From Bacteroidota bacterium (GTDB lineage Bacteria > Bacteroidota > Ignavibacteria > Palsa-1295): a DNA stretch of 54,106 nt. A program made the translations under genes and the position numbers. Of the stretch, positions 18,234 through 20,533 are shown piece by piece. Within the stretch, counting starts at the first letter, position 1; each line of letters begins with the position of its first letter. The notes beneath the pieces were generated by a model. That model was given only the letters and a program-made list of their open reading frames with translations. It was not told where the DNA came from and ran no database searches. Where the stretch lies: assembly GCA_021324685.1 (NCBI GenBank), contig JAJPIQ010000048.1, forward strand, positions 1 to 54,106, given 5' to 3'.

Positions 18234-18378
18234 GTCCCTTAAAACGAAGAGGAATTCAGTGAGTTTCAACCCTTTTTGCTTTTAGAAATTACGATTTTGA
18301 TGAATTTTTTTGTAACCGAACTAACTCCCGGGCGTTTTATATCTATAGATGCTTCATTAGACGCTTCTCTTTTGCGAA

Positions 18379-19047
18379 TTGGTTGAATTCGTGCAAATTA
18401 GGCTGAAATCCAATAAAGGATTGCTGGAAAAAAAGGCCATCCAGGAGGTTCCCGCGGTTGTTATCGCGGATGAGGATCTCTGGCGCGCGTTTCAAAATGG
18501 TGAGGACGCCGCCTTCAACATGCTTTATGGCCGCTATGCGGACCGTATATACAGCTATTTAAAACTTTTACTTTCGAGCGCTCCCGGCTATCTTGACGAT
18601 ATTTTCCAGGATGCATGGGTCCAGCTTTTTCGGAATCGCGATAAATTCTCTGTTTCAGGGGGCGGCTCTGTGGCCGGATGGCTGTTCCGAATGGCCCATA
18701 ACATGGCGATCAGCCAGCTCCGGAAAAAAGGCTTCGTTTCGATCGACGATATCAATATCGATACGGACCTTATCGAGGGTTTTATCTCACCGGCCACGCA
18801 GGACCGCTTCGACCGGCCTTCTTCAGACGAGATTATGGGCCACGTCATGCGATCGGTCGAAAAGTTACCAGTGTTGCTAAGAGAAGTTTTTATTCTATCG
18901 GAATTCAACGGTCTGGCTCTCGACCAGATAGCAGAGACGTTGGGCGTCACAAAACAAAACGCGAAGGTCCGCCTTTTCCGCGCTCGGCGGGCGATCCGCG
19001 AGGACCTTTCGCGCATTCTCGATATCTCAGGCCTCAACGACGAATGA
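18379..19047 (+). CDS. RNA polymerase sigma factor, ECF subfamily
   Basis: Sigma factor of about 222 residues with only regions 2 and 4. Region 2 runs from AFNMLYGRYADRIYSYL through YLDDIFQDAWVQLFRN to VAGWLFRMAHNMAISQLRKK; region 4 runs from LPVLLREVFILSEFNGLALDQIAETLGVTKQNAKVRLFRARRAI, which includes the -35-binding helix-turn-helix. The linker between them is acidic and about 45 residues long. The start is uncertain: TTG at 18379 or GTG at 18391, neither with a good ribosome site. The next gene encodes its probable anti-sigma partner 61 bases downstream; a hairpin terminator closes the pair. The regulon cannot be predicted from this window. Confidence 0.9.
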   Translation: MVEFVQIRLKSNKGLLEKKAIQEVPAVVIADEDLWRAFQNGEDAAFNMLYGRYADRIYSYLKLLLSSAPGYLDDIFQDAWVQLFRNRDKFSVSGGGSVAGWLFRMAHNMAISQLRKKGFVSIDDINIDTDLIEGFISPATQDRFDRPSSDEIMGHVMRSVEKLPVLLREVFILSEFNGLALDQIAETLGVTKQNAKVRLFRARRAIREDLSRILDISGLNDE

Positions 19048-19108: not shown

Positions 19109-20467
19109 ATGCTTTATTTAGGAGAAGAACGAATTTTAGACTTTCTCGATGGCCGCTTAGCCACGCCGGACGAGGAAGAGCTCCTTCATACCCTTGCCGT
19201 ATCGCCCGAGCGCAGGCAGGTATTGCGCGAGCATCTGAAACTTCGCGAAGTCACCAAGTCTCTTGCCCGTGAGGACCGCTTTACGGTCCCTGAGAGTCTG
19301 ACGAACGAGCTGTTCAACCGTCTTGAATCGATCGGCCATACGGCCCCGATCGGCCCCGAGGTGTTACTGACTCGTGCTCCGGAATTTGTCCCGCTTCGCA
19401 TCGCTGCATTGGAAGCTACAGCCGCGGCAGGGGCGACGGCGGCGGCCGAAACAACGCTCTCCAGTGGATGGCGCTTTGGCGCCATGTCCATTGCGATGGT
19501 CTCACTGATTTCTTTTATATTGGGAGCAGGGGCATATTACGTCTTCGGCTCCAGCCTCGGACTCCGGACGCATTCGCAAGAGATCGCGGCGCTCAAACGT
19601 TCGCATCATGCTGTCGTACATCGGTCAGCATCCACTTCCCAATTCGATGTTGCGGAGGTCCAACCCATCGCGTGGTCTTCGAACGCGATCCGCACGAAAG
19701 CGAAGCTGCCATTACCGATTCCCCCTTCTCCTGTCTCCGCTTCTTCGGTAGTCGAGGAAAAACCGGGGCAAGATATCGTTCCGGCTTCCGAGATCACTTA
19801 CACGGCGCCTCGGAATCGTTCGTATTCGCTTGCTCCTTCACCGAGCGCCTATCTCCTGAATGTGCCGACGATCTGGCATAACGTTGAACCGACCCCTTTG
19901 GCGCTTGATCGTGGGACGATCAGCGTTCGTTTGGGAACGGGACCTTCGCCATCGAGTACGTCGTCCTCGATGAGCACTTTAAACGAATTCCGGTTCAGTT
20001 GGACGATGTGGAATTATGTGCTGGTATCGGCTTCAATGGGGCAGTTGAACTCGTATGAGCGAAGTGCAACGTTAGATCCTAAAAGCTCTCAGGGCCGTTA
20101 TTCGATCATCACTCCGGAAGGATCGACGCCGAAATCTTCTATGCTTATCGGCATGGAAGCAGGGTTTACGCTCGTTCCCATGGGAATTCCCGTCGAGGCG
20201 ATGGCTGGTATTATGTACTCGGGTTTGGACGGCGATTACTCTCCGTTCTATGAACGGGCCAGCCTGATGGTCCATTTCGAACCGTGGAAACTGCTCACGG
20301 TTTCTGGCGGCCTCGAAGGGCTTATTTATACTCACTACCTCAGCAAGTCTATCACCGAACAACAGACCTTAAATGCGTATTATGCTCCAGGCCGATCTGC
20401 AAAAGCTCTTACGCAGGAAACCTGCGGTCTTGTCGGTCCCGCGCTCGAGATCGGCTGGCATTTCTAA
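19109..20467 (+). CDS. Putative anti-sigma factor with C-terminal beta-barrel-like domain
   Basis: A 452-residue protein of unusual layout. Residues 1-75 are acidic and helical (EERILDFLDGRLATPDEEELL) and resemble the cytoplasmic sigma-binding part of anti-sigma factors, without the zinc-binding HxxxCxxC. One membrane helix covers about 123-145. A Pro/Ser-rich linker (about 195-290) leads to alternating amphipathic beta strands (about 290-452), with turns such as GLDGDYSPFYERA, ending in EIGWHF with a terminal Phe, as in outer-membrane barrels. AAGGAG five bases before the ATG is the strongest ribosome site nearby. Paired with the upstream ECF factor and followed by a terminator. Ligand or envelope sensing by the C-terminal domain is inference. 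Confidence 0.7.
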   Translation: MLYLGEERILDFLDGRLATPDEEELLHTLAVSPERRQVLREHLKLREVTKSLAREDRFTVPESLTNELFNRLESIGHTAPIGPEVLLTRAPEFVPLRIAALEATAAAGATAAAETTLSSGWRFGAMSIAMVSLISFILGAGAYYVFGSSLGLRTHSQEIAALKRSHHAVVHRSASTSQFDVAEVQPIAWSSNAIRTKAKLPLPIPPSPVSASSVVEEKPGQDIVPASEITYTAPRNRSYSLAPSPSAYLLNVPTIWHNVEPTPLALDRGTISVRLGTGPSPSSTSSSMSTLNEFRFSWTMWNYVLVSASMGQLNSYERSATLDPKSSQGRYSIITPEGSTPKSSMLIGMEAGFTLVPMGIPVEAMAGIMYSGLDGDYSPFYERASLMVHFEPWKLLTVSGGLEGLIYTHYLSKSITEQQTLNAYYAPGRSAKALTQETCGLVGPALEIGWHF

Positions 20468-20510: not shown

Positions 20511-20533
20511 GGCCCGCCCATTGGCGGGCTTTT
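20511..20533 (+). terminator. Rho-independent terminator after ECF/anti-sigma pair
   Basis: GCCCGCC (20512-20518) pairs with GGCGGGC (20523-20529) around a CATT loop and is followed by TTTT. A GC-rich 7-bp stem with a short T-run 45 bases after the anti-sigma stop is a good terminator and separates that operon from yceD. Confidence 0.75.

Follow-up and report, generated by a model that had tools for sequence, protein, structure and literature searches.

The 54,106-nucleotide stretch of DNA analysed here (the window), from an organism on the Kapaibacteria side of Bacteroidota, carries an ECF sigma factor gene followed by an open reading frame whose 452-aa product looks like an anti-sigma factor at one end and an outer-membrane barrel at the other. 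How might a single chain with these two ends be placed in the cell envelope, and does it regulate its neighbour? A sequence-only reading of the locus had drawn attention to this arrangement; its observation was real and its interpretation was mostly right. The promoter, the regulon and the difference between this anti-sigma head and the head found in Bacteroidia are additions of the present analysis. The features of the locus are as follows.

18310..18337, + strand: predicted ECF-type autoregulatory promoter, TGTAACC-N14-GCGTTT (equivalent to GTAAC-N16-CGT), from ortholog conservation
18379..19047, + strand: ECF sigma factor gene, 222 aa, TTG start (Sigma70_r2, 7e-13; Sigma70_r4_2, 5e-13)
19109..20467, + strand: anti-sigma/barrel ORF, 452 aa, ATG start (open frame, ortholog alignment)
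19109..19342, + strand: predicted class-I anti-sigma domain without zinc ligands, residues 1-78 (PDB profile, Pfam, Foldseek)
19493..19549, + strand: single inner-membrane helix, residues ~129-147 (hydropathy, AF2 helix)
19550..19909, + strand: Pro/Ser/Ala-rich tether, residues 148-267, 120 aa (composition)
19910..20464, + strand: predicted 8-stranded outer-membrane barrel, residues 268-452, ending WHF (AF2, Foldseek)
20512..20533, + strand: intrinsic terminator-like hairpin, GCCCGCC-CATT-GGCGGGC-TTTT (read from sequence)

Pairing with the ECF gene and the anti-sigma head

The ORF lies directly after the ECF gene, as the sequence-only reading had stated: 61 nt separate it from the ECF stop codon, and a GGAG ribosome-binding site is found 5 nt 5' of its ATG. 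The closest PDB sequences to the ECF protein are ECFs of the sigma-E and sigma-H/W class. Read from the sequence, the two genes form a predicted two-gene operon that is ended by the hairpin at 20512-20533. Full-length orthologs of the 452-aa protein were identified in 9 of the 12 other genus and family genomes sampled and a tenth is split across contig ends, while the two sampled genomes with no ortholog are only 67% complete. Because orthologs occur across the genus and family and the head recurs elsewhere, the architecture of this ORF is not due to chance. Among the fetched loci, the head was found in 76 distinct ORFs. The survey for the same gene order that had been proposed bore out the pairing, as the head is directly 3' of an ECF gene in 75 of the 76 (that is, in every readable case, since the remaining ORF begins at a contig end). 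In the window's genome, five head genes coincide with five of the 22 places at which Sigma70_r2 is found. Among the matches listed from the 296 phylum genomes sampled, long head-bearing frames (~370-700 aa) occur only in the window's class, and those outside this class are short frames of 84-328 aa. Head and ECF distances are correlated in a mirror-tree comparison (r = 0.63, 0/2000 permutations), but among distant pairs only the correlation falls to r = 0.09. We therefore rejected the mirror-tree as proof of fine co-evolution between head and ECF, and read the correlation as showing co-descent.

A profile of the head built from 32 sequences was searched against 177,635 PDB sequences. The best natural matches were RseA (1or7, E-value: 0.065) and RsiW (5wuq, E-value: 0.082), with a designed helical protein scoring slightly better (E-value: 0.022) and the remaining matches unrelated and weaker. 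Each of these matches is weak alone, but the appearance of both RseA and RsiW at the top of the natural matches is hard to explain by chance. No family was matched in a Pfam and NCBIfam scan of the entire 452-aa protein; anti-sigma Pfam models emerged only when the heads of relatives were scanned, with zf-HC2 in 26 of 32 family members (best E-value: 6.9e-7) and RseA_N in 10 of 32 (best E-value: 1e-5). The AF2 model of the head is helical and of low confidence (pLDDT 60), and five of its seven Foldseek fold matches are to structures of RseA, RsiW and RslA that were determined together with the respective sigma factors. The check that had been set on a contact between head and ECF factor is thus answered by these sigma-bound relatives and by the head-ECF distance correlation, which support a putative contact. 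The earlier description of the head as anti-sigma-like thus stands on matches to PDB profiles, to the Pfam models in relatives and to known folds, by which residues 1-78 can be classified as a class-I anti-sigma domain (ASDI; the helical RseA/RsiW/RskA kind). The HxxxCxxC zinc motif of ZAS (zf-HC2) domains is absent: the equivalent stretch reads LAVSPERR and there is no cysteine in residues 1-78. Because it lacks zinc ligands, the domain is RseA-like and not a zinc-binding anti-sigma domain.

It could be argued that the two genes are neighbours with no regulatory partnership, the second encoding an outer-membrane protein that carries an unrelated extension at its N-terminus. We consider this highly improbable for four reasons. 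First, the order of ECF gene and then head gene is kept in every readable case. Second, the head matches anti-sigma families. Third, head and ECF show co-descent. Fourth, the promoter described below is common to both genes of the operon.

Two further groups of ECF-associated proteins were observed. Some head paralogs found behind ECF genes have no barrel (~240-290 aa; L034, L039, L050:1965-2762 and L026) and carry a conserved C-terminal motif of the SS(R/H/N)DR type. In the window's genome, three more ECF genes (L067 G000:C61, L069 G000:C23 and L071 G000:C34) are each followed by a gene for a 335-357-aa protein with a short, different head, a single membrane helix and a C-terminus that looks strand-like (ending in GFAW, VYRW and EYTFAP). 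These are possibly further independent two-membrane anti-sigma proteins.

Membrane helix, tether and C-terminal domain

The one inner-membrane helix that had been noted at the outset is the sole membrane helix of the protein (mean hydropathy 1.97) and is also predicted as a helix by AF2. The Pro/Ser-rich linker that was said to follow it is present, but it is longer than the ~100 residues first given: the 120 aa of the tether include 14 Pro, 18 Ser and 14 Ala and have a contour length of ~43 nm. Among 61 complete barrel-bearing relatives, the linker has a minimum of 66 and a median of 109 residues. Even the shortest of these would reach ~24 nm fully extended, which is enough to cross the periplasm; this minimum is compatible with a linker that spans the periplasm and is not proof of it.

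Structure prediction of the C-terminus, which had been set as a check, gave eight long strands (AF2 with 8 homologs; pLDDT 82, pTM 0.73) and not a soluble non-barrel fold. All 50 PDB matches listed by Foldseek for this model are outer-membrane or designed transmembrane barrels. The top one by TM-score among the matches listed is OmpW (0.52/0.57), and OmpA, Ail, OmpX and OprG are also found. As the E-values of these matches are above 0.001, they support a fold class and not a family; a search of PDB sequences with the barrel profile gave no match. The alternation of apolar and polar residues along the strands is above that of 4988 of 5000 shuffled sequences (all but 12). The strand-rich C-terminus had also been said to end in a Phe, and it does so (...EIGWHF), as do 43 of the 61 complete barrel-bearing relatives, with some others ending in L, P or K. 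The model and its fold matches point to a predicted 8-stranded outer-membrane barrel.

Alternatively, the C-terminus may be a soluble, barrel-like or strand-rich periplasmic ligand binder, in a protein that spans the inner membrane only. The inner-membrane helix alone is certain, the tether may be a mere spacer and some relatives have no terminal Phe, all of which agree with such a domain. This alternative is nevertheless rather improbable, given that the eight strands are long, with apolar faces that alternate, that the fold matches listed are all transmembrane barrels and that the linkers of the 61 complete forms are never too short for the periplasm.

The barrels are far less alike than the heads. 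When window-ortholog barrels are compared with those of other paralog groups, the profile probability is at most 23%, as against ~99% for the heads, and barrel homology across most paralog groups is not demonstrable by profile comparison. We treat this low similarity as a probable sign of fast divergence and not as proof of separate origins.

The promoter, its predicted targets and a proposed mechanism

Every one of the 11 orthologs, the window's among them, has the motif GTAAC-N15/16-CGT 5' of its ECF gene, and the spacer itself is not conserved. It is present at only 2 of the 64 other head-paired ECFs, and the expectation from shuffling is 1.5 in 75. Genomes were searched for other targets with the strict pattern TGTAACC-N13-15-GCGTTT, using the reversed pattern as a control. 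A looser pattern, TGTAAC-N14-16-GCGTT, was dropped as it gave 11 matches versus 5 for its control; because the contrast was lost, the regulon is taken from the strict pattern only. In the window's genome, this pattern has four sites versus none for the reversed control. The first is 5' of the ECF/anti-sigma operon itself, two are 5' of genes for giant proteins (~1420-1445 aa) that carry IgGFc-binding as well as type IX sorting domains, and the fourth is 5' of a gene for a 171-aa secreted or lipoprotein-like product.

In six genomes of the same genus, the strict pattern has 57 sites versus 2 for the reversed control. Of the 30 sites read, 29 have a same-strand ORF (at least 140 aa) whose start lies 5-210 nt downstream; four of these ORFs are the ECF gene itself. 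Nearly all of the non-ECF targets begin with a signal-peptide-like stretch, and TIGR04183 (the type IX secretion sorting tail) was found in 14 of the 18 non-sigma targets scanned, which are partly orthologous and hence not independent. Each of five genomes contains at least 150 copies of TIGR04183 among roughly 3000 genes, or perhaps 5-9% of genes (a share for which the gene number is an inferred estimate). As 78% of the scanned targets have the tail versus perhaps 5-9% of genes, the excess is strong. From these predicted sites, the ECF/anti-sigma pair probably controls a regulon of surface proteins, largely type IX cargo.

Other features of these genomes were also recorded. The window's genome and the same-genus genomes (~3.5-4 Mb) each have a very large cargo set, with at least 150 matches to the type IX sorting domain. 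In the window's genome, L172:5095-16692 (G000:C15) encodes three giant IgGFc_binding (PF17517) proteins in tandem, with an OMP_b-brl_2 protein after them; two of the three giants have type IX sorting tails, and both of those are behind a predicted promoter. The spacers of ECF promoters are usually free. Within one genome, near-identical predicted promoter spacers (GGAGGCACYCTCGAG) nevertheless precede different genes (L181, L184, L187, L193, L199 and others in G001/G002), which points to promoters having been copied or to an additional bound factor.

Taking the locus as a whole, we think it likely that the ORF encodes an outer-membrane-tethered anti-sigma switch that acts on the ECF factor and drives its own operon and a surface-protein regulon. 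The cytoplasmic head would bind the ECF factor and keep it off RNA polymerase, a sign of regulation that is assumed from what is known of the family. The single helix would hold the protein in the inner membrane, the Pro/Ser/Ala tether would cross the periplasm and the Bam machinery would place the C-terminal 8-stranded barrel in the outer membrane, so that the chain would be inserted in both membranes simultaneously. We infer that the signal would arise at the outer membrane, through tension, through loss of barrel insertion or through a ligand or partner that binds the barrel, and would expose a periplasmic stretch to a site-1 protease, after which an RseP-type site-2 protease would release the head. 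From TGTAACC-N13-15-GCGTTT promoters, the freed sigma factor would then transcribe its own operon together with genes whose products are secreted surface proteins, exported for the most part by the type IX system. The window's genome encodes several PDZ proteins, as well as an M50 protease whose PDZ domains are in tandem; M50 and PDZ proteases are near-universal.

A related possibility is that the barrel is a sentinel of outer-membrane protein assembly, in a scheme like that of RseA and DegS except that one chain would act as both sensor and client: failed Bam insertion would leave an unfolded barrel with its terminal Phe in the periplasm, where the protein would be cut. Most members have a C-terminal aromatic motif, the head is of the RseA/RsiW kind and PDZ proteases are encoded in the genome, all of which speak for such a sentinel. 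We nonetheless regard it as unlikely. The predicted regulon consists of surface cargo and not of chaperones or Bam parts, and barrels that are far more divergent than their heads are a better fit to different ligands than to a common assembly signal. Because the barrels diverge more than the heads among paralogs, we lean towards a receptor role for the barrel of the tethered switch.

Comparison with Dma proteins and other known systems

The earlier statement that similar proteins occur beside Bacteroidota sigma factors was sound, but the remark that they are poorly described is out of date. According to PMC13088901 (citing Pardue et al. 2024), the Dma family of the gut bacterium Bacteroides thetaiotaomicron has an anti-sigma head, a helix, a disordered tether and a C-terminal barrel and is encoded beside an ECF21 sigma factor. 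Dma1 and Dma2 are reported there to restrain Das1 and Das2 and to affect vesiculation. Dma proteins share the order of parts, the ECF neighbour and the Bacteroidota host with the window protein, but their published phenotypes concern vesiculation and polysaccharide loci, whereas the predicted targets here are type IX cargo.

For comparison, proteins behind ECF genes were collected from Bacteroidia genomes, not all of them long enough for a barrel. The label "Dma-type" for this set rests on architecture and neighbour. The Bacteroidia heads have ~45 residues and roughly the pattern F..xF...L...E..P...W..I...L. Alignment of the window-type head with these heads (Dma-type by architecture) using hhalign gave a probability of 0.3%, versus 98.7 and 99.2% for within-family controls. 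In an ECF tree, the 35 Bacteroidia ECFs and the 75 head-paired ECFs separate completely (split support 0.73), which places the window's ECF outside the clade of Bacteroidia partners; the Bacteroidia side also takes in two head-less ECFs from the window's genome. Since the heads are unrelated by profile and the ECFs form separate clades, the two-membrane anti-sigma layout was apparently assembled more than once, independently in the window's lineage and in Bacteroidia. On this evidence, the window protein would work like a Dma protein but with a different head. What looks like an unfused layout occurs in one Bacteroidia genome (L119, G154:C27): an ECF gene is followed by one for a 363-aa protein with two copies of the Dma-type head motif, and then by another that encodes an outer-membrane barrel with a signal peptide.

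It is quite possible, though we put this forward tentatively, that two-membrane anti-sigma proteins arose at least twice in Bacteroidota (with RseA/RsiW-type and Dma-type heads) and that the Kapaibacteria one monitors the outer membrane and sets the supply of type IX cargo. If so, the type IX secretion system would have a fused, one-protein control loop from surface to promoter. Proteins of this class were known before; as far as a literature search shows, what is new is the variant, where it occurs and the surface-protein regulon predicted for it. Little is known of how Bacteroidota inform their promoters about the outer membrane, and fused barrel proteins are one answer. A layout that recurs with two unrelated heads is presumably of use in itself, and the predicted promoter and regulon make the switch testable and link it to type IX cargo.

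RseA of Escherichia coli and RsiW of Bacillus subtilis resemble the window protein in having a cytoplasmic class-I anti-sigma domain, an inner-membrane helix and a sigma partner of the sigma-E/sigma-W class. They differ in having no outer-membrane barrel, and RseA senses outer-membrane stress through the separate proteins DegS and RseB. In one survey, class-I anti-sigma domains were found beside only 6% of Bacteroidetes ECFs (PMC7406223). MlaD of Veillonella parvula, like the window protein as predicted, is a single chain that has both an outer-membrane barrel and an inner-membrane helix, and fractionation supports the placing of its two parts in two membranes (PMC10665443). It functions in lipid transport and not as a regulator, its domains are unrelated and its barrel is ten-stranded, and no barrel-bearing MlaD was found in the Fibrobacteres/Chlorobi/Bacteroidetes group (PMC10665443); by analogy, it may be taken as an independent precedent for helix and barrel in one chain. 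Finally, in FecR/TonB-dependent cell-surface signalling, an inner-membrane anti-sigma factor is informed by an outer-membrane barrel, as is proposed here. In the FecR system that barrel is a separate TonB-dependent receptor, whereas in the window protein the predicted barrel is fused to the anti-sigma factor.
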